Below are positions 1 to 19,328 of a stretch of DNA of 20,203 bases, in pieces; within the stretch, counting starts at the first letter, position 1; each line of letters opens with the position of its first letter. Source of the stretch: a virus. The translations under genes were made by a program, and so were the position numbers. Under the pieces are notes generated by a model. It saw nothing but the letters and a program-made list of their open reading frames with translations. It had not been told where the DNA came from and made no database searches. The stretch spans positions 1 through 20,203 of the IMG/VR virus record IMGVR_UViG_3300030116_005764, one strand, 5' to 3'.

Positions 1-644
1 TGGGTAGGGTGTGGTAGGATTACCATATTTGATTGACAAAGAGGGTTGAAGTTATTGAATGAAGCGAATAGGGAAGCCCATATCCATGCACCGGGAGTTA
101 CAGTAATATCTTCAGGCCAATCCTCTTCTTTGTAGTGGTCTTGCATGACAAAATCATACGTTCTTAGAACACCCACGTTTTCTACTGTAGGTAGAACGTC
201 TTGTGCAATCATCCAACTCCTCTTCACACCGAGGTCTAAGAGAACCTTGATGATTGACGAATACATGGGGTACATATAGAGCCAGTTAAAGGCATCGTCA
301 TGGCCTTCGCCATCATTTATCGAAGTGGGATGCACATAGTTTACTCTCAGTACGAAAACTCTCACGTTATCGCTATCTCTCATTTCGTACAAATGCCACT
401 CAGGAAATAGAGGGTTCGGTATGCTATTGAACGCAGGTACAGTCTGCAACTTAGAGTAAATCCTTGCGACCAACTTTGGTTCCTCCCCCAAGAATCCCAT
501 CATACTTGCGAAACCAGCCCAACCTTCTTCGTGTTGCACGAATACGATAACGTCGCTATCTTCTTTTTTCAACCACGCATCATGTGTCCAGACGAAATCT
601 GTTTCGTCTACCCTCTCTATTCTTGCCCCTTGCGCCCGCGCCAT
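1..644 (-). CDS. Hypothetical protein, C-terminus outside the window; probably a late/structural gene
   Basis: An open frame of 214 codons runs leftward from an ATG at 642-644 and leaves the window without a stop. It begins MARAQGARIERVDETDFVW and continues as an ordinary mixed globular sequence (blocks such as DVIVFVQHEEGWAGF, NWLYMYPMYSSIIK, VTPGAWIWASLFASFNN). No catalytic motif or membrane segment is evident and I do not recognise the family. It is the first gene behind a 149-bp regulatory region that recurs in front of the portal gene, so by inference it is expressed with the virion genes. A PAC2-like fold was considered but there is no diagnostic motif. Coding status is secure; function is unknown. 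Confidence 0.8.
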   Translation of the reverse strand, partial: MARAQGARIERVDETDFVWTHDAWLKKEDSDVIVFVQHEEGWAGFASMMGFLGEEPKLVARIYSKLQTVPAFNSIPNPLFPEWHLYEMRDSDNVRVFVLRVNYVHPTSINDGEGHDDAFNWLYMYPMYSSIIKVLLDLGVKRSWMIAQDVLPTVENVGVLRTYDFVMQDHYKEEDWPEDITVTPGAWIWASLFASFNNFNPLCQSNMVILPHPT

Positions 645-693
645 ATCACATCGCCTTCTCTAATGCTTATTAATTTGATTCCTTGACTTTTCC

Positions 694-842
694 TACAAAA
701 TTAAAAAACCGTGATACTCCGAGCCTATCCCTATTTTGTTTTATTTCTTCAAAGGTATTTTTTGTTTAGGTTCCAATAAAATCTCTTTGAACAATTGAAA
801 GAATTAACAAAACCGTGATATTGCGAACCATTTATTTTTTCT
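694..842 (-). promoter_or_regulatory. 149-bp late-type promoter region, copy A (inverted copy of 17736-17884)
   Basis: Read leftward, this stretch aligns without gaps over 149 nt to 17736-17884 read rightward. Shared blocks include AGAAAAAATAAATG, TTGTTCAAAG, TTGAAGAAAT and AGTAY followed by a T-rich tract. It contains two modules 104 bp apart: GTTCGCAATATCACGGTTTT (828-809) and GCTCGGAGTATCACGGTTTT (724-705). Each is followed by an AT-rich tract that could act as a TATA element. The downstream gene starts at 644. At its far end an ATTTATTTTTT box (830-840) points the opposite way, into the 3' end of the neighbouring leftward gene. Confidence 0.75.
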
Positions 843-848
843 TGGGCC

Positions 849-1787
849 TCATGCAAAGGATTGAAGGAATAGAGAATATCTTTCTCTCTCCAGACTATTC
901 CTTTGTTTGAATGTCAGATTGGAGGGGTATCCTACGTGTCTTGTGTTAGTAAACGTTCTCAGTACGTGTGGGGTGAGGTAGTCTTCGCTGTCTACAAATC
1001 GTTGGTTCAGTTCAACCAAAGAGTCAATGCACTCATCGACTTTCTCTATGATTTTGTCGGCCTCTACGCTATCCCATGACCCAGTAAAGGATACCGGATT
1101 GCAAGGTTGCATTATGATATTCTCGCCAGCATGGTATCGAGCGCACATAGTAAATGTCTTTGCTTGTTGAGTCAGTTCTAACTCGCAGTTATCCCAAGAC
1201 ATGACTACTCTTCTATGCCATGAGGGTCTATTGGAAGACTTGTATTTTGCCCCAACTAACGACTCTCCTGGCACTCTCTCTTGCACGTATGCTACCAAGG
1301 GTTCGTAGCCCATGTAGGTCACAGTACTACTCTCTTTTCGCACATCATGTATGACCAAGTTTCCCTTCTCATTCTCCTTGGCACCGAACATAAGTGTGTT
1401 ATCATTGTTTTTCAGTATGTCTCTAAGAAAAGTCAGCGGCACAAACGTTTGGATGATACCCTTGAAGTCCTCAAAAGATAATCTCTCAGGAAATAGAATC
1501 TCGTTTACAAATTTGTGGAATACAGATAGATTTAGTATGGCGAAATCATACTTTCCTATTCTTAGGATTACCACAGGTTTCATCCTTCTTGCCGTACTCC
1601 CTCTTGTCTGTGAGGGTGTGAATCTCCTTACTTTTCTAAAGGCATCGCAATACACTGGCTCGATTTCGCTTGCGTTTATCTCGATATTCCGAGTAGCCTT
1701 AGCGTCGTTCTCAGGATGGTTATCGCCAGCATTATCTAACCATTTGGAAATCAGTTCCATGTCCGATGGAAACTCACTCCTCTTCAT
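849..1787 (-). CDS. Hypothetical protein, 312 aa, last gene of the early operon
   Basis: A 312-residue soluble protein beginning MKRSEFPSDMELISKWLDNA. It has no membrane segment and no obvious zinc or nucleotide-binding motif. It is Arg/Lys-rich in places (TRGSTARRMKPVVILRIGKY near residues 61-80) and has a tryptophan-containing central part. The ATG overlaps the end of the upstream gene by 14 nt. A second ATG at residue 10 lies after a GAGGAG purine tract and is an alternative start. It is the largest gene of the small-gene cluster and its last member before the late-type regulatory region. I do not recognise the family. Confidence 0.85.
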   Translation of the reverse strand: MKRSEFPSDMELISKWLDNAGDNHPENDAKATRNIEINASEIEPVYCDAFRKVRRFTPSQTRGSTARRMKPVVILRIGKYDFAILNLSVFHKFVNEILFPERLSFEDFKGIIQTFVPLTFLRDILKNNDNTLMFGAKENEKGNLVIHDVRKESSTVTYMGYEPLVAYVQERVPGESLVGAKYKSSNRPSWHRRVVMSWDNCELELTQQAKTFTMCARYHAGENIIMQPCNPVSFTGSWDSVEADKIIEKVDECIDSLVELNQRFVDSEDYLTPHVLRTFTNTRHVGYPSNLTFKQRNSLERERYSLFLQSFA

Positions 1788-3159: not shown

Positions 3160-3296
3160 TAGAACACCTCGGTGCCACAGGTAGGGAGGGAGGCGAAAAC
3201 GGGGAAGAACGAACAAAAACCCCTTACTCCTTTGTCGGATCTGGAAGCATGACGATTGCAACTCCCTACCATGTGACTCTTACTTGCTGACATCAT
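3159..3296 (-). CDS. Possible small protein, 45 aa
   Basis: An ATG-ATG pair overlapping the upstream TGA (ATGA) opens a 45-codon frame ending in TAA that itself overlaps the next ATG. The sequence (MMSASKSHMVGSCNRHASRS, then a hydrophobic GFCSFFPVFASLPTCG segment) is low in complexity and unremarkable. It is retained because its start and stop fit the operon exactly. The composition alone would not have convinced me, and a non-coding spacer remains possible. Confidence 0.45.
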   Translation of the reverse strand: MMSASKSHMVGSCNRHASRSDKGVRGFCSFFPVFASLPTCGTEVF

Positions 3297-3862
3297 ATCA
3301 GCCCCAATGTTTTGAGGTACGCGGTCTTCTCATCATCGCGTGGCTCCTCTTCTCTCTCTTCGTGCCACCAATCGGGCCAAGAGGTAAGACGGTATCGTAC
3401 ACCGCCCTTGGAATTCGGTTTCTCTCCCCTGTAGTATGCTCGGTACGCAACCACAGGGTCTTCGTGCTTGTACTCATCGGGCATGGCTTGGGCGAAAGGA
3501 GTCAGTTCTCCTTCGGGTAGTAGGTGGGCCATCTTACCCATTTGTATGATAGGGTTGTGGCATGAGTGTCTCTTTCCAACGAATCGGCGCGTGTACTCTT
3601 CGCACAGCCCAAGGCCGTGCTTGTATAACCACATGAAGTTAGCACGATTTCTTGTGGCCCAGATTGTGCATGGGTGATTGGGGTACCCGCCTCGGTACGG
3701 CGTACCTTTTTGGGTGAGGGGCATCATGTCGGGAGTCGCACCATTGACTACGCAAGCCGAAGCCAACATCTGGGCAGACTCTACAGCCATCTTTGGTAGT
3801 CGAACATCATCGACATACGAAGCGGCGATGTGTGGGTCTTGGTCAAGCACAAAAATATTCAT
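3293..3862 (-). CDS. Phage-type conserved 'MNIF.LD' protein, possible pyrimidine-dimer glycosylase-like, 189 aa
   Basis: The N-terminus MNIFVLDQDPHIAASYVDD followed by LPKMAVESAQMLA matches a pattern widespread in phage genomes (MNIF.LD...AA...D...KM..ESAQML). It is followed by the usual NHPCTIWATRNRANFMWLYK segment and an AMPDEYKHEDPVVAYRAYYR block. In my memory these proteins are usually annotated as hypothetical or as pyrimidine-dimer DNA glycosylase-like; I cannot verify the latter from the sequence. Length is typical for the family. It sits directly after a MazG-like gene, suggesting a nucleotide/DNA-maintenance pair. A GAGTGAG purine tract precedes the ATG. Confidence 0.75.
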   Translation of the reverse strand: MNIFVLDQDPHIAASYVDDVRLPKMAVESAQMLASACVVNGATPDMMPLTQKGTPYRGGYPNHPCTIWATRNRANFMWLYKHGLGLCEEYTRRFVGKRHSCHNPIIQMGKMAHLLPEGELTPFAQAMPDEYKHEDPVVAYRAYYRGEKPNSKGGVRYRLTSWPDWWHEEREEEPRDDEKTAYLKTLGLI

Positions 3863-5998: not shown

Positions 5999-6020
5999 GT
6001 ATTCCCCTCTTATGTCAAAG

Positions 6021-8562: not shown

Positions 8563-8652
8563 ATTTTTGATAGGATTTTCGGCCCGCCTTCTCTTCTCCT
8601 GAATTCTGACTCTCTCGGCCCTGTCAAACTGAAGAGGATTTTTGCTCAGTTA

Positions 8653-8777
8653 TTTGTTACTGCCAGCTGAAGGGGGCCGGGCTACGGTAACATATTTGTT
8701 ACTGCTATCTGGATTGGCTGAAAAAAATCTGGCTGAACTGACGCTGAAACTGTGGCTAGAATACGGTAACAAATTAC
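8653..8777. repeat. Small cluster of GTAACAAA-type repeats and CTGGCTGA motifs
   Basis: TTTGTTAC at 8653-8660 and 8695-8702 and GTAACAAA at 8766-8773, the second within a near-palindrome GTAACATATTTGTTAC (8687-8702) and the third within GTAACAAATTAC (8766-8777). CTGGCTGA (8729-8736) matches, in reverse, the TCAGCCAG repeats of the central region. It is a satellite of the large array at 10820-11603, on the other side of the DUF932 gene. Confidence 0.7.
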
Positions 8778-8784
8778 TGACTGA

Positions 8785-8890
8785 CGAAAAAAATTAACGA
8801 CGATTGCTGGTGATTGAGAGGGGCCGAGCGTGTACGCGCCCGACCCCAATCGCACACCCGTTTCTCCAGTCCAACCACGCTTCTTCTCAG
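8785..8890 (-). ncRNA. Candidate structured small RNA
   Basis: A TATA-like AATTAAATA (8912-8920, transcribed strand) would start a leftward RNA near 8890. It would contain a strong hairpin at 8847-8820 (11-bp stem GGGGTCGGGCG/CGCTCGGCCCC with two G-U pairs and a 6-nt loop) and reach a run of seven T near 8791-8785, a plausible archaeal termination signal. No convincing ORF covers it. The promoter is weak, so this is only a candidate; the hairpin itself is certain. Confidence 0.3.
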
Positions 8891-8927
8891 ATGCTTGTTT
8901 GCTCCACACTATTTAATTTGGCCTCTA

Positions 8928-9122
8928 CTAACCCTCGGTAATCTGAAGGTCTTCGTCCGCCGTGCGCCGACTTCTCGTCCGTAGGCTTTCGCCACGCATA
9001 TGAGACCGAGACTCACTCTCGGCTTTAGGTCGCCCGGTCTGGGCAGTTATCCGTGTGGTCGGTGTCTGGAAAAATGAGGGTTGCTCCCTTTCTTCGTCGT
9101 GGGAGCGAGGACACCCCATCAT
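8928..9122 (-). CDS. Doubtful small ORF after DUF932, 64 aa
   Basis: Begins MMGCPRSHDEEREQPSFFQT, 26 bp downstream of the DUF932 stop and after AGGGG. It is rich in Arg, Ser, Thr and Glu with no motif, and would be disordered. The underlying DNA also contains several short hairpins, for example CCGAGA/TCTCGG at 9007-9023 and GCCC/GGGC near 9031-9043, so the stretch may instead be a structured 3' region. Kept as a low-confidence call. Confidence 0.3.
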   Translation of the reverse strand: MMGCPRSHDEEREQPSFFQTPTTRITAQTGRPKAESESRSHMRGESLRTRSRRTADEDLQITEG

Positions 9123-9147
9123 GCCCCTAAGCAGAACGACTATCAGT

Positions 9148-10371
9148 TCAAACGGTCTGGGCGTCGGTCAGGAACTCTTGAGCGTCAGCCAGAGTAGGCT
9201 TCGGGTCGTAGGTTCCGGACTTGCCACGTGCCAAGGCCAGTGCGAATGTTAGCGTCTTCCTCTTAGCCAGACCACCCATCATCGTTGATGCCAGTTTGTC
9301 AAGCCGAGTGTCGCCTTGTCGCATTACCTTGTTCGTGCGGTGTACCATGTTGCCGTCTTTGTCCTCTTCGTTGCGAGCCTGGATGCCCTCGCGAGCATCT
9401 AAGGCGGTGTCACCGTAGGAGAAGTCGGGAATTAGGCTCCGGCTCTTGGTCTCCTTGTGGTCGGTAACGTTAGTCATGGCATTAATCAGACCCCACAGAG
9501 TCTTTCTCATGCCGTTCACACCGTTTGTTGGGTCGGTTAGCCAGTTGTCCATCAGGTCATCGACTTGTCGGCGCTTGATGGAGGATATCTGGGGGTCGCC
9601 CTTCAATAGAGAGGATTCTGTCGGCTTGGCATCGAGCGCATCTAAGAAGAATTGCTCGCCTTGCTTCTTGGTAACCTTAACCGTTGTCAGCAGGTCGGCT
9701 TGCTCGCCGAACTCAACGAATCTCTCGTTCACGATACCCAGAGCCCGACGGGCTTGGTCTATCCTGGCAGAAACGTCGCCACGGTGTGGGACGGTAATGC
9801 CACCCTTACCACGAACACCGCCACGTAGGGCCATGCCGAGGGTGTTAGAGCAGACAACACGCACAGTCGTGGGCAGAATCTTTACTGCACCAGCGCCGTC
9901 GTGCCGAGTCGTGATGAGTAGGTATGGAGCGAGAGTGTCTCTGTCAGAGCCACCAATCTTGATGTGGCCGGGTAGTCTAGCCATAACCCATACCTCGTTG
10001 CCGTTGTGTAGCGCACCGCAAGTTTCGACAATGCCGTCTTGCTCTTGCACCAGGTCATCAATGAATCCGAAGATTTGATTGTTCTGGATAGGCTGGTAGG
10101 CGCCGGTTGCCGTGTAACCGTTGGCCGAAAGTGCGATGTAACCGGACTCGCCGGTCAATTCTCCAGTCTCGGGGTCTCGGTAGTCAATGCGACGGTACGA
10201 CCCGTAGGTGTTGTGCATTAGCAACTCTTCTCCAGTATGAGTCCTGATGAAGGTTTCGCCCATCTGAACAGGCCAATCAAGGCCCGCTCGCTCAAGTGCC
10301 TGAGTGGTAGTCATCAATGACTCGCTCTCGTTACCGAGACCGTGCCAAGGGACGTTGCCGTGCCAGGCCAT
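9148..10371 (-). CDS. DUF932 phage/plasmid-like protein, at least 407 aa
   Basis: The N-terminal AWHGNVPWHGLGNE is the DUF932 hallmark (PWHGLG). It is followed by the family's long alpha/beta body with IKIGGSDRDTLAPYLLITTR, DGAGAVKILPTTVRVVCSNT and a helical C-terminus. The length is normal for the group (about 300-420 aa). Members are found on phages and plasmids; their function is unresolved. The first ATG (10371) leaves out residues usually present before the PWHGLG motif. In frame upstream, the codons from an ATA at 10408-10410 read IPADLSIQNGFVE, which resembles the family N-terminus and lies 3 bp after a full GAGGTGAT ribosome-binding site. The true protein may thus start at 10410. The gene is visibly GC-richer than the clusters around it. 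Confidence 0.9.
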   Translation of the reverse strand: MAWHGNVPWHGLGNESESLMTTTQALERAGLDWPVQMGETFIRTHTGEELLMHNTYGSYRRIDYRDPETGELTGESGYIALSANGYTATGAYQPIQNNQIFGFIDDLVQEQDGIVETCGALHNGNEVWVMARLPGHIKIGGSDRDTLAPYLLITTRHDGAGAVKILPTTVRVVCSNTLGMALRGGVRGKGGITVPHRGDVSARIDQARRALGIVNERFVEFGEQADLLTTVKVTKKQGEQFFLDALDAKPTESSLLKGDPQISSIKRRQVDDLMDNWLTDPTNGVNGMRKTLWGLINAMTNVTDHKETKSRSLIPDFSYGDTALDAREGIQARNEEDKDGNMVHRTNKVMRQGDTRLDKLASTMMGGLAKRKTLTFALALARGKSGTYDPKPTLADAQEFLTDAQTV

Positions 10372-10414
10372 TTCAACGAAGCCGTTCTGTATGCTTAAAT
10401 CAGCAGGTATTTTA

Positions 10415-10573
10415 TCACCTCATTTTGGTACTGCACCGGGGGTCTCCGAAACCACACTCCCTCTCGGCAGGTAGGCCGAAACCGCTTCTTGATGGGCCGG
10501 TGTGAATCCACTTGTGGTTCTCCAGTCCTCCATCTTCCACGATGTAGGGTCGGTCGGTGCAGGTCTTTTGCAA
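10415..10573 (-). CDS. Possible small protein upstream of DUF932, 52 aa, TTG start
   Basis: An open frame with a TTG start (10571-10573) and consecutive TGA TAA stops at the DUF932 ribosome-binding site. The sequence looks protein-like (RPYIVEDGGLENHKWIHTGP, then ERECGFGDPRCSTK), with three Cys. Two other frames are also open here over part of the length (one contains MEDWRTTSGFTPAHQEAV), so frame choice is uncertain. If real it would be translationally coupled to DUF932. Confidence 0.35.
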   Translation of the reverse strand: MQKTCTDRPYIVEDGGLENHKWIHTGPSRSGFGLPAERECGFGDPRCSTKMR

Positions 10574-10685
10574 TCGTCGTTACTTCTCGTTTCCCGGTCG
10601 TACCCGGTACTCCTTCACATCGCCACCGATGTGCGAAGAGGAGTCGGTCTTTTCCCCCGCTCCTACATACTGATATAAGTGCCTG

Positions 10686-10716
10686 TATTTAAACTTAACT
10701 AAACTGGCCATTACTG
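10686..10716 (-). promoter_or_regulatory. Early-type promoter of the DUF932 unit
   Basis: CAGTAATGGCCAG (10716-10704), a 10-bp gap, then TTTAAATA (10693-10686). Transcription should start near 10663, about 250 nt before the DUF932 reading frame. Unlike the other two copies of this promoter, it produces a long leader or serves a small ORF in between. It faces away from the repeat-rich central region. Confidence 0.75.
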
Positions 10717-10790
10717 GGATTTCTCTCTATTAAACGCTATACGCGCGTAATAGATAATAGGATTTCTTTCCCCCTGAAATCGTGTCAGCA

Positions 10791-10798
10791 TATTTAAA
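10791..10798 (-). promoter_or_regulatory. Second TATA box upstream of the DUF932 promoter
   Basis: Another TTTAAATA on the leftward strand, 105 bp upstream of the first. Instead of the CAGTAATGGCCAG element it has a GTAACAAA repeat at 10827-10820 about 20 bp upstream. It may be a tandem promoter regulated through the central repeats, or the transcription start for a leader/primer RNA. Confidence 0.45.
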
Positions 10799-11190
10799 CG
10801 GAGCCAAGTCTCACAGTTATTTGTTACCCTACGCTTTCGGTGTGTTTTTCGTAACTCTATGGGGATGTTCGGTGGGACTGATTTTTGATGGGGAAAAATA
10901 ACTACCCCTATTTCAAATTTGTTACTCGGTATCTTCTCCCACACCCGGTGTAAATTTGTTACCGAGTTACCAACGCTACATCGTGCCAAGATTTTTTTCG
11001 GTCAGCCAGGCCAGAAATTTGTTACTCTTTTTCAGCCAGGGTCAGCCAGAAGGGGTTCAGCAGACCAGCCTCTCTTTTCAGCGCACGGATTACGGCCACA
11101 GTAACAAATTCGTTACCGGATTACTGAAAATCAGCAAAAATGTGGTAACAAATTAATCGGTAACAAATAAGGTAACAAATTTGGTCTTTC

Positions 11191-11210
11191 AAAACCGACG
11201 TACTGCGGGG
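11191..11210 (-). repeat. Dispersed 20-bp late-type promoter motif, central copy 1
   Basis: Read leftward: CCCCGCAGTACGTCGGTTTT, nearly the same as the module in the 149-bp late promoter regions and as the copies at 11332 and 11610. It is flanked by GTAACAAA repeats on both sides. No gene follows within reach, so here it may be an operator, a promoter for a non-coding RNA, or part of the origin. Confidence 0.6.
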
Positions 11211-11331
11211 CTATAGAAGTAATTTGTTACCTTTCTGGCCCCCGTTTCCGACTATACTATGCTATGCGGAACTGACCCATAGAAAGGTAACAAATATGAA
11301 TTGTGGTATATGGGGTAATTGTGGTGGACTT

Positions 11332-11351
11332 GCCCGCAGTACATCGGTTTT
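11332..11351 (+). repeat. Dispersed 20-bp late-type promoter motif, central copy 2
   Basis: GCCCGCAGTACATCGGTTTT, divergent from copy 1, followed by TATGTGG and an A-run. It lies between GTAACAAA repeats at 11287 and 11397. It differs from the module at 17854-17873 at only two positions. Any transcript would run toward 12055 through about 700 bp of non-coding DNA. Confidence 0.6.
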
Positions 11352-11609
11352 ATGTGGTAAAAAAGTGGCAAATACCACAATTAAACTGACCAGTAATTTG
11401 TTACTGCTGAAATCAGCAAGTTTAGGTCGCCCTAAAAATATCGGTGCAAAAAGTAAACTAAAGAGCAAATTTTACACTTAGTTTTTTTCTTACACCGCGT
11501 CAGTAACAAAATGGGGTAACAAATTTGTTACCGCGTAAATTAATAATATTGCAAAAAACCCAGTAAAACGCCAGAAAACGGGCATTAGCCAGTAATTTGT
11601 TACTCCATA

Positions 11610-11629
11610 AAAAACGCTATACTGCGGGC
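11610..11629 (-). repeat. Dispersed 20-bp late-type promoter motif, central copy 3
   Basis: Read leftward: GCCCGCAGTATAGCGTTTTT, directly followed downstream by a dyad GTAACAAATTACT site. A weaker relative, TACGCGCGTATAGCGTTTAA, lies at 10749-10730, upstream of the DUF932 promoter. Confidence 0.6.
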
Positions 11630-11674
11630 TTGTGGCCCAACTGTCCGCTTCGCAATCACTCGGTTATTGAGTAA

Positions 11675-11976
11675 ACTGCCCGTAGATTGCCAGCTAGCGC
11701 CTCATACTGAATTCGTCCGCTAAAAAATGTCGAAAATTAATAGGAAGAAACTGGATTCCAAAATCAGAGTTAGGTAAGCCCTAAAGAATCAAAACAGGGA
11801 AATGCAAATTCCCCCATACTACCCGCAGATGACCAGATAAACGTGTCGGCTATGTCGGCTGGTATCGTGCTGATAAGCCTTAGAATATATACTTATGGTG
11901 TTCATGCGTATGATGCAAATAGAAACCGAAAATTGAGAAATTCGTTACTAATGAAATCTGGCCGTTTACGGGTAGT
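11675..11976. repeat. Three copies of a 19-bp motif upstream of the 12055 operon
   Basis: ACTGCCCGTAGATTGCCAG (11675-11693), ACTACCCGCAGATGACCAG (11818-11836) and, on the other strand, ACTACCCGTAAACGGCCAG (11976-11958). The last copy lies about 40 bp upstream of the TATA box of the operon, so these are candidate operators. The rest of 11630-12010 shows no ORF or RNA gene that I can support. Confidence 0.5.
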
Positions 11977-12054: not shown

Positions 12055-13305
12055 ATGTCCGACAAGAAAGAAAATGTTCTGGGGTTCATACCCCTGGACG
12101 CTGACCTGGTGGGTGAATCACCAGACGGAGCATCAGCCGCACTGATGCAGATTGCCAAAGCTGGTTCTGTGAGAATGGAAGAAGTGAGAACGGTTGCCGA
12201 GATGGCCCCGCTTGGATTGAACAACGGTCACGATTCGGTGACCATGCTCACCGAGGCATCCGCCATCGCGGTTGAGTCGATGAACAGGACTCAACTAACC
12301 CGCCTCATTCGCCAACTCCGCCGAGATGGTTGCCCCATCGAGGCTACGCAGAGGGGAGAGAAGAACGCAGACCTACGAGCCCGCATAATCCATTGGGCTG
12401 GTGTACCTCGTCAAGTCCCGGTCATCAAGGCCCACGACGAGAATGCTGGCGTAGGGATTGAGCCATTGACCATCGCTGCCGTAGTCAAGTTGGGCCAACT
12501 TGGAGTACTCGGAGAAAGGCCCGGACACGTCCTCAACATTGAGGTCGAGAAGAGTTCGGGAGTCCACCACCGAGTTATCATCGAGGAGGGAACGAGAACC
12601 AAGGTTCGCCAATCCAACTGGATACAGACCGTCAATGATACGGGGCGACATGGTGCCCGCAGAGCCGACCAAATTGCGGTCGAGATGACGTCCCGAAGGA
12701 AGAGGGGCCACATCACCACCGTACCGAGGTTTGGATGCAACCACAACGAGGCATTCCTACTGGATGGGAACAAGCCACCGAAGTGCGTATCCGAGAAGAC
12801 CGGGATTGAAGGCTGGGCGAAGGAGGGACGCGATACCTGCCAAGTATGCGGCGGGCCGGCAGAGATTGAGATTCACCGTGCTGGTGGGTCAAGAATCAAT
12901 GCCACGTTCAAGCCTATGCTGGCCATCAAGCCCGATGGCAAATTCGTGAGGAGGGGCAACGGTACCGCACAGGTGAAAGTGGTTTACACCCACCAGCAGA
13001 AGAAGTCGAGGAGGCACCAATTCAAGATTGACGGAAAGCCTCGATGGATTCACGGCACGGCCATGAGAGTTGAGGCACCACTGGCACCGGAAGCCCAAGC
13101 GGTATTCAACGGCGAGACCATCCCCGTCTGGTGCTTCGTGGCTACCGGCGAGAAGTCCGGCGACTATGACCCAATGGCGCTCAATGTGGCCGAGGAAAGG
13201 ATGCTCCGCACCCTGCTCAACGTAGCCCGCAAGAGCAAGAATGCCGACTATCTCAACATGGAGTCCAAGATTATCCGCAAGCACATCAACACGGGGGCGG
13301 TGTGA
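12055..13305 (+). CDS. SAP-like and zinc-motif DNA-binding protein, 416 aa; candidate replication or regulatory protein
   Basis: Begins MSDKKENVLGFIPLDADLVG. Residues about 76-112 (MNRTQLTRLIRQLRRDGCPI, then KNADLRARIIHW) have the helix-turn-helix layout of SAP-type DNA-binding motifs. A central basic segment (RHGARRADQIAVEMTSRRKR) precedes a Cys/His set: C228, H230, C244 and the CQVCGGPAE knuckle at 262-270 with H274. The C-terminal 140 residues are basic and mixed. I do not recognise a polymerase, helicase or nuclease motif. It is the first gene downstream of the repeat-rich region, so an origin-binding or autoregulatory role is attractive but inferred. GC-rich, with codon usage unlike the packaging genes. 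Confidence 0.85.
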   Translation: MSDKKENVLGFIPLDADLVGESPDGASAALMQIAKAGSVRMEEVRTVAEMAPLGLNNGHDSVTMLTEASAIAVESMNRTQLTRLIRQLRRDGCPIEATQRGEKNADLRARIIHWAGVPRQVPVIKAHDENAGVGIEPLTIAAVVKLGQLGVLGERPGHVLNIEVEKSSGVHHRVIIEEGTRTKVRQSNWIQTVNDTGRHGARRADQIAVEMTSRRKRGHITTVPRFGCNHNEAFLLDGNKPPKCVSEKTGIEGWAKEGRDTCQVCGGPAEIEIHRAGGSRINATFKPMLAIKPDGKFVRRGNGTAQVKVVYTHQQKKSRRHQFKIDGKPRWIHGTAMRVEAPLAPEAQAVFNGETIPVWCFVATGEKSGDYDPMALNVAEERMLRTLLNVARKSKNADYLNMESKIIRKHINTGAV

Positions 13306-14303: not shown

Positions 14304-14612
14304 TTATAATCTTTTACGCCAAACCCAAACTAAATACCTATTGCCGGGTTGCCCAGAGGAAATCTGTCGAGCGTAGAGATTGCATAAGTCGATGTACTTG
14401 TCTCCGCGCATTCTACCAGATATAACATTCGTGGTTACAGGACTCCAATGCTTACTCATCTTGTTATTTACCTTACTCGCTATCTCGCCACTTGTTCTCC
14501 ACTCATCTAAAAAATCACTCGATAAAACCTCTACCATTAAATCGTGAATTAACTTGTTTCTTTTCTTTGGCCCCGACTTTCTACCTTCAGGTGGTGTTTG
14601 TCCTTTACTCAT
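14304..14612 (-). CDS. Small winged-helix-like protein after TerL, 102 aa
   Basis: Begins MSKGQTPPEGRKSGPKKRNK, a disordered basic head. Residues about 22-80 (LIHDLMVEVLSSDFLDEWRT SGEIASKVNN, then WSPVTTNVISGRM) are helix, helix, recognition helix and a short wing. The general outline resembles the 119-aa protein at 2390-2749. The ATG overlaps the TerL stop by 8 nt. Known small terminase subunits are DNA-binding and adjacent to TerL, so TerS is one candidate; a late regulator is the other. Confidence 0.8.
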   Translation of the reverse strand: MSKGQTPPEGRKSGPKKRNKLIHDLMVEVLSSDFLDEWRTSGEIASKVNNKMSKHWSPVTTNVISGRMRGDKYIDLCNLYARQISSGQPGNRYLVWVWRKRL

Positions 14613-17711: not shown

Positions 17712-17735
17712 ACGTTTGATATACCCTATGTGCTT

Positions 17736-17884
17736 AGAAAAAATAAATGCTTCGGAGTACAACGGTTTACTGAATTAATTTTATTGTTCAAAGGCATATT
17801 TTTGGGTCGTTATCAATAAATGCCATTGAAGAAATTAAATAAAATACTTGATGGCCCGTAGTACATCGTTTTTTTATTTTTGTA
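17736..17884 (+). promoter_or_regulatory. 149-bp late-type bidirectional promoter region, copy B
   Basis: Aligns without gaps to 842-694 in inverse orientation. Two modules 104 bp apart: CTTCGGAGTACAACGGTTTA (17750-17769) and GCCCGTAGTACATCGTTTTT (17854-17873), the second followed by a TTTTTTATTTT tract that can serve as TATA for the portal gene. The left end (AGAAAAAATAAATG, 17736-17749) read leftward is a TATA-like box for the metallophosphoesterase-TerL operon. The region therefore separates two divergent virion/packaging units. Confidence 0.75.
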
Positions 17885-17951
17885 AAATACCTAAAATAAG
17901 TAAAATAAATGGGCGAAAGGTTCAAAAACCACCGATTATGTGAAAATATTA

Positions 17952-19328
17952 ATGGCCGAGCGTAAGTGGTATAATTTCTTTGCACCAACAAAAGTAGAGG
18001 CTTCACAAGAAGTAAGTAGGGTAGGCACTAACAAGCCCTTTTCGGCAATTGCTGGGGTTCCTGACTTAATGCGTGATACCGAAAGATTACAAAAGGATAG
18101 CAAATACGATAACGAGTTTGACTTATTCGACAATATGCTAAAGTTAGACCCCGAGTTGAATGGCGCAGTAAGAGCAGTAGCATTAACGGCAAATAACTAC
18201 GAAATAAATTACAAAAAGGCCAAGAATGAAACCATACGCTCGCACATACGCGAGATGGTAGAGAAAATAGAAATGGATGACTTCTTGATAAACGCCATGA
18301 GGGGGCTTATGGTGTACGGTAATGACATCAACAAGATAGTAGGGCGCGAGGGTATGGGAATTACCGCACTACAAAGTCTGCCTGTAAAGCAAATGACAAT
18401 AGTAGACGAAAGGGGCGCACTAAACACGATATTTGCCGCTGGAGAAGATGAGCCAATTACCGAGGCGGCAATCTATGTTCTTAGAGAGCAGAAACTACAA
18501 ACTAAGTCATTCCCTGCAACAGAAATACTACACGTAAAGATAGATGCTAGAAGCAATTGGTTTGTTGATAACTTAGGCCGACATACTTACGGTGTGTGGG
18601 GTGCATCAAGATTTACCGCACTGAAACAAGCCATACGCATGAAGTATAATACAATGAATAACAGACTTTCCTTAGAGGATGCTATGACAAAGCAATACAT
18701 CACAATAAGTCAAGAGGCAATTGCTCATATCCAAGACCCCGCCGAGCAAAACGAAAGACTTACCCATATTATGGATGAAGTTATCAAGTTGTTTGAGGGT
18801 CTACGTGGCGACCAAATTCCTGTACTACCACACTATGTAGAGTTGCATCATATTGACCTTGAAAACTCACTTCCTAATAGTAGCGAGTTTTTGGATAGCG
18901 TAAACGCAGATATAGCGGCTGTACTACAAGTACCGAGAGTTGCTGCTGGTCAAGAAAAGGGTTCTACATTTGCGGCAACCTTTAATGCTAATATGTGGGC
19001 CGTCCAAGCAATTAGTAGAATGCATAGAATTCTACGTGAGGCTTGCATGAAGTTATTTTCCATGCACCTTACTCTTATGGGAGTCGAGCATAGGCTACAA
19101 GACTTGCCTGTTGTAGAGTTTGATAAAATGGATACTGAAACGCCTTTAAATGTAATGCAAAGAGCGACTATGGGTTACCAAAGTGGTATATTGACACTTA
19201 ATCAAGCATTAGAAATGCTAAATCTACCTACGGCAAGTGGTGGCAATAGTAGAGATGGTAAGCCCATAAAGATAGAATCTGAGTTACCACGCGAAAACTC
19301 TCAACCTGGCGCGTCTGATTCAAAGTAA
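17952..19328 (+). CDS. Phage portal protein, about 458 aa
   Basis: The dodecameric portal forms the DNA entry/exit channel of the capsid and docks TerL. Typical features in order: an N-terminal helical segment (NEFDLFDNMLKLDPELNGAV, AVALTANNYEINYKKA), VYGNDINKIVG, the EILHVKIDARSN and YGVWGASRFTALKQAIRMKY blocks, a long stem/clip region (IPVLPHYVELHHIDLENS), then the VPRVAAGQEKGSTFAATFNA and helical C-terminal parts. An in-frame GTG at 17940 gives four extra residues; I prefer the ATG at 17952 (MAERKWYNFFAP). The only upstream signal is the 149-bp late-type region. Confidence 0.92.
   Translation: MAERKWYNFFAPTKVEASQEVSRVGTNKPFSAIAGVPDLMRDTERLQKDSKYDNEFDLFDNMLKLDPELNGAVRAVALTANNYEINYKKAKNETIRSHIREMVEKIEMDDFLINAMRGLMVYGNDINKIVGREGMGITALQSLPVKQMTIVDERGALNTIFAAGEDEPITEAAIYVLREQKLQTKSFPATEILHVKIDARSNWFVDNLGRHTYGVWGASRFTALKQAIRMKYNTMNNRLSLEDAMTKQYITISQEAIAHIQDPAEQNERLTHIMDEVIKLFEGLRGDQIPVLPHYVELHHIDLENSLPNSSEFLDSVNADIAAVLQVPRVAAGQEKGSTFAATFNANMWAVQAISRMHRILREACMKLFSMHLTLMGVEHRLQDLPVVEFDKMDTETPLNVMQRATMGYQSGILTLNQALEMLNLPTASGGNSRDGKPIKIESELPRENSQPGASDSK

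Follow-up and report, generated by a model that had tools for sequence, protein, structure and literature searches.

We describe here an element of about 150 bp that occurs twice, facing outward, in a viral contig (IMG/VR record IMGVR_UViG_3300030116_005764). The stretch analyzed, called the window below, is the complete 20,203-bp contig, and copy counts for this virus refer to it. One copy (B) heads a DNA-replication operon, and the other (A) stands before the portal gene of the virion operon. Our favored reading, to which we give a probability of roughly 0.65, is that a single regulator, probably viral, switches both operons together through the duplicated region, a conserved and virus-specific regulatory element lying upstream of each. 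The two copies and their parts are listed here, cores with their position weight matrix (PWM) scores.

684-849, minus strand: element copy B, heading the replication operon (match of the sequence model R1 at 683-848, E 1e-29; nhmmer; inverted repeat 670-842/17736-17908)
17728-17908, plus strand: element copy A, between the minus-strand TerL/nuclease operon and the plus-strand portal gene, in the same position in about 30 related contigs
706-726, minus strand: core, module 2 of copy B, AGGCTCGGAGTATCACGGTTT (23.5 bits)
810-830, minus strand: core, module 1 of copy B, TGGTTCGCAATATCACGGTTT (21.0 bits)
17748-17768, plus strand: core, module 1 of copy A, TGCTTCGGAGTACAACGGTTT (21.5 bits)
17852-17872, plus strand: core, module 2 of copy A, TGGCCCGTAGTACATCGTTTT (22.4 bits)
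748-791, minus strand: central inverted repeat of copy B, TTCAAAG...CTTTGAA (alignment A1)
17787-17830, plus strand: central inverted repeat of copy A, TTCAAAGGCAT...ATGCCATTGAA (alignment A1)

The two regions pair without a gap over 149 bp (842 to 694 against 17736 to 17884), with 110 identical bases (74%), well above the values obtained for 500 dinucleotide-shuffled pairs, for which the best of 41 shifts gave a mean of 54 and a maximum of 67. BLASTN of the two regions returned 75% identity (E 1e-23), and the inverted similarity extends past the 149 bp to about 670 and 17908 (173 nt, 71%). A preliminary description of this DNA had claimed both this end-to-end inverted similarity and the presence in each region of two modules 104 bp apart, and both observations stood. 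In the left copy, the 104-bp period is clear upon self-comparison (28 nt at 79%). The right copy is too diverged for self-comparison, and its period was derived from the register and from PWM matches at 17755 and 17859, the latter by alignment and PWM. Each element thus consists of two quasi-palindromic 21-bp cores (CGCAGTAYARCG; consensus TGGCTCGCAGTATAACGTTTT), set in A-rich dyad arms and flanking an inverted repeat, TTCAAAGG...CCTTTGAA.

The genes flanking the two copies were also as first described, with a truncated open reading frame (ORF) on the left and the portal gene on the right. Three genes are needed to follow the argument.

3-644, minus strand: first gene behind copy B, with a predicted PbaB/PAC2 fold, cut by the contig edge
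14605-16113, minus strand: large terminase TerL (PF17289, phrog_38)
17952-19328, plus strand: portal (PF04860, E 2e-12), with the N-terminus MAERK as in relatives; the listed ORF starts at GTG 17940

Copy A separates a minus-strand operon containing TerL from a plus-strand virion operon encoding the portal, protease, major capsid protein, and tape measure. Copy B stands at the head of an operon that runs the other way and encodes an AAA ATPase, the clamp loader RFC, PolB, a PD-(D/E)XK nuclease, and an ERCC4-type nuclease. This gene content identifies the left copy as an element of the replication operon and not of virion genes. The earlier idea of a late regulator of virion genes only is therefore not supported, since the second copy heads a DNA-replication operon, behind the gene with the PbaB/PAC2 fold. 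The block between the copies holds mostly small, fast-changing genes. Two other genes were conserved in this part of the genome: a pyrimidine dimer DNA glycosylase family gene (3293-3862, minus strand; PF03013, phrog_624), found near copy B in 12 of 18 contigs, and, in the early block, a DUF932 gene (9148-10371, minus strand; phrog_1221), conserved in 13 of 18.

The same layout was found in related viruses, as the preliminary description had proposed to check. A portal search yielded 45 related loci, and the element lies directly upstream of the portal gene in about 30 related contigs, those with a portal identity of roughly at least 67%. When R1, a sequence-only model of the element, was searched against 56 full contigs, two strong outward-facing copies 16-21 kb apart were detected in 16 of them, the window included. 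The more distant relatives G018 and G020 carry copy B only, with TerL and portal in one operon that lacks copy A; other long contigs gave weak element matches only, and several contigs picked by a single core match gave none. Copies A and B resemble each other more within one genome (mean 0.638) than across lineages (0.578), the within-genome pairing being the best of all 40,320 pairings. This similarity is consistent with a shared binding protein or with gene conversion and, together with the conservation in relatives, rules out a recent, decaying duplication, a possibility raised at the outset. The same site is present at two divergent operons, as in phage paired operators.

The cores themselves provided further evidence. 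The 21-bp PWM was built from the portal-side copies and window copy B, and sites of at least 17 bits were considered strong. It recovered targets on which it had not been trained, namely, the copy B cores of relatives and sites between the copies. Across the 16 two-copy contigs, 79 sites reached at least 17 bits, with 52 in elements, 25 between the copies, and 2 outside (567 kb), and 0 sites reached this score in 869 kb of reversed sequence. In the window, the search for further copies uncovered a third locus, overlooked in the preliminary description, made of three cores between the copies, all outside the PWM training set.

11192-11212, minus strand: central core 11205(-), AGCCCCGCAGTACGTCGGTTT (21.3 bits)
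11330-11350, plus strand: central core 11337(+), TTGCCCGCAGTACATCGGTTT (23.6 bits)
11611-11631, minus strand: central core 11624(-), AAGCCCGCAGTATAGCGTTTT (27.3 bits)

These single cores inside the inter-copy block are located in intergenic DNA and lack the A-rich arms. Central sites are common but not universal, since none was found at the threshold of at least 17 bits in G026, G035, and G040. The core pattern matches 46 stretches in viral contigs, and a pattern one base longer had 2 matches, in Mesorhizobium and Pontibacter, in 257 Gb of prokaryote DNA (84,980 species genomes), which is about chance level. The core is virus-specific.

Other repeats were observed around these sites. About 15 copies of GTAACAAAT, many of them as the palindrome GTAACAAATTTGTTAC, occupy 8644-11956, in the approximately 1 kb of intergenic DNA that surrounds the central cores and also near 8.7 kb, and relatives carry GTTACAAA-type repeats in the matching region; a replication origin or operators of a second regulator are possible functions. 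A repeat of 33-44 bp (minus strand, CAGTAATGGCCAGTTTAG..TTTAAATACTT) stands before several minus-strand early genes, at 6015, 6707, 8526, and 10680, and looks like a shared early promoter. In the distant relative G025, a near-perfect core palindrome, ATAAACGCAGTACAGCGTTAT, lies beside the ERCC4 gene at about 30385-30392, which suggests a relocation of the site in this lineage.

The preliminary description had taken the 104-bp spacing for a fixed, helically phased geometry, and here the comparison with relatives led to a different conclusion. Core spacing in 37 elements was either 99-113 bp (30 elements) or 142-156 bp (7 elements) and showed no helical phase preference (Rayleigh p 0.26-0.97). 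Both spacings can occur in one genome, as in G004, with 105 bp in copy B and 143 bp in copy A. The extra ~40 bp of the long-spaced elements sits at the tip of the central inverted repeat (elements of G004, G008, G018, G020, G035, and G044), and one core is inverted in several contigs, consistent with a near-palindromic site. The argument from 104 bp fails because the spacing varies, the phase is absent, and cores can be inverted. Relatives that share the sequence but not the 104-bp spacing are the outcome that the preliminary description had itself named as refuting the geometry.

The position of the element relative to promoter signals bears on how it might act. In most relatives, the portal ATG is preceded by a TTTATA-like box at 25-31 nt and by the second core at 81-101 nt. 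The corresponding feature of the window is the following.

17920-17930, plus strand: weak TATA-like box of the portal gene, GTTCAAAAACC, read from the sequence, about 30 nt before ATG 17952, where relatives have TTTATA or TTTATG

The initial label of promoter region was thus correct in placing the copies upstream of operon starts, but loose in that the visible TATA-like box lies downstream of the element. Because the element is upstream of the promoter, an activator would suit it better than a roadblock repressor. That conserved elements are bound by one regulator at paired sites, as first suggested, best explains the upstream positions at operon starts. In such a mechanism, one dimeric DNA-binding protein, probably virus-encoded, would bind the cores; at both elements, where it would sit upstream of the core promoter, it would most likely activate transcription and thereby switch the replication and virion operons together, and at the central sites it may regulate early promoters, possibly its own.

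Candidates for this regulator were sought among the genes of the group, and no universal protein family confined to the early block was found among the contigs compared. One candidate is encoded beside TerL.

14304-14612, minus strand: winged-helix protein, weak candidate regulator or small terminase (AF2 pLDDT 84.8; fold matches)

This predicted winged-helix protein accompanies TerL in 15 contigs and may equally be the small terminase. The product of 12055-13305 adjoins the central sites, but it is fast-changing and without a family match, and it was not retained. The 3-644 product is near-universal, its family occupying first or second place in the replication operon of 17 of 18 contigs (~21-35% identity between lineages), but was also set aside. 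It had no Pfam or PHROG match, and its predicted fold is that of the archaeal proteasome activator PbaB and assembly chaperone PbaA, of the PAC2 family (Foldseek E 1e-7, pTM 0.87). Since this fold is not a DNA-binding one, 3-644 is better seen as a gene of the target operon than as the regulator; judging from the model, a viral proteasome modulator is a possible function.

Several observations weigh against co-regulation of the two operons by one protein. Cooperative binding is unsupported, given the variable spacing and the inverted cores. In G033, G041, G043, and G047, copy A is ~0.5 kb from the portal gene and not directly before it. The window has a weak TATA-like box, and no clear TATA is shared by the copy B promoters. 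The winged-helix candidate is missing from six contigs that have sites, and genome composition or gene conversion could cause part of the within-genome similarity of A and B. A broader version of the mechanism, for which we see perhaps one chance in a few, would be a genome-scale switch in which one viral protein at the two outward elements and the central sites turns on both operons and shuts the early block, perhaps by bridging the loci. Such bridging is conceivable because the spacing inside each element is free.

Among the alternatives, the one that fares best, although it is unlikely, is that the cores bind a replication initiator or act in partition, in the manner of iterons, ORB sites, or parS, and that their position at operon heads is secondary. 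The sites are indeed concentrated within the early block and near it, the central group is surrounded by many GTAACAAAT repeats, and one element copy heads replication genes. However, the elements stand at two fixed places ahead of operon starts and have a TATA-like box downstream, no family-wide initiator was seen in the early block, and GC skew tracks the gene strand and marks no origin. Less probable still is a host regulator whose sites were borrowed by the virus; the failure to find a family-wide viral regulator would be explained in this way, but the core pattern had only the two chance-like bacterial matches among 84,980 species genomes.

Packaging (pac/cos) sites bound by small terminase are very improbable. 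Copy A does lie between TerL and portal, the small winged-helix protein adjoins TerL, and the arrangement of paired sites on either side of a central repeat is reminiscent of lambda cosB. A genome is expected to have one pac or cos site, located at its end or close to it, yet two opposed copies are present, and the ends of long contigs, which may differ from virion termini, are several to 22 kb from the copies. Moreover, the TerL-portal junction of G018 and G020 has no copy, while copy B is kept. That the leader contains a structured RNA or an attenuator is hardly credible: dyad arms and the central inverted repeat are present and single sequences fold, but RNAalifold gave 0 consensus pairs in the element, shared pairs were weak, with double changes no more frequent than in shuffles, no Rfam family matched at gathering score, and the TATA-like box lies downstream. 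We read the dyads as a probable DNA-binding symmetry. Equally implausible is that the elements are recombination sites or the termini of a segment that moves or inverts. Wherever both copies are present, they do bound a 16-21 kb segment in inverted orientation, but the cores differ between the two copies of a genome and all contigs share the same inner and outer neighbors, in one gene order with no flipped state.

The viruses of this group are uncultured marine tailed viruses, probably with archaeal hosts. At the DNA level, only chance matches to named phages were found, and the PolB of the group is nearest to haloviral PolBs (23-27%). In HF2 and other haloferacalesviruses, intergenic repeats (IRs) conserved in position and orientation carry promoters; HF2 IR3 starts an 18-kb transcript with PolB, IR12c starts a 35-kb morphogenesis transcript, and virus-coded factors have been proposed to time these transcripts (PMC8707807). 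These promoter-bearing IRs are the closest known system. The element would resemble them in role, standing before PolB-containing and morphogenesis operons. It differs in size and anatomy, the HF2 IRs being 58 or 29 bp with a TATA box and start site inside, whereas the present element is ~150 bp with two cores and an inverted repeat, and the TATA-like box is outside it in most portal-side copies, 25-31 nt before the ATG. Furthermore, HF2 uses different IR classes for early-middle and late transcription, whereas the same element precedes both operons here. The HF2 Class I motifs TCTTTAAGTC and CTAAAGACTTAGAA were not enriched (0 matches; 4 versus 2.3 expected, none in elements).

Magrovirales (Aoguangviridae and Apasviridae) are marine archaeal tailed viruses whose replication and virion genes form two oppositely transcribed clusters (PMC10768690, PMC12999244). 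By these published descriptions, the layout is alike, but their genomes are 90-110 kb and the contigs studied here 64-74 kb. The Magrovirales profiles make no mention of a shared control element (PMC10768690, PMC12999244), and the word promoter does not occur in a magrovirus survey (PMC10160649). Stf76 of pSSVx is a small archaeal winged-helix viral regulator that binds two sites in a promoter (PMC4027180). It provides an analogy only for the putative regulator proposed here.

In lambda, oL and oR carry one short site, in several copies per operator, at the outward-facing operons that end a control block. The present arrangement is similar in reusing one short site, several copies each, at outward operons. 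Unlike in lambda, both outward operons are lytic, the sites lie upstream of the promoter, and no repressor is known. In our literature searches, no earlier description of the element turned up.

How uncultured marine archaeal viruses control their genes is poorly understood, and the element contributes a precise, virus-specific DNA site. The site tags contigs of this virus group and marks both operon starts, and its positions in 16 contigs, together with two presumed target operons, make it testable without a cultured virus. Finally, the predicted proteasome-activator fold of the gene behind copy B suggests that its product may interact with the host proteasome.
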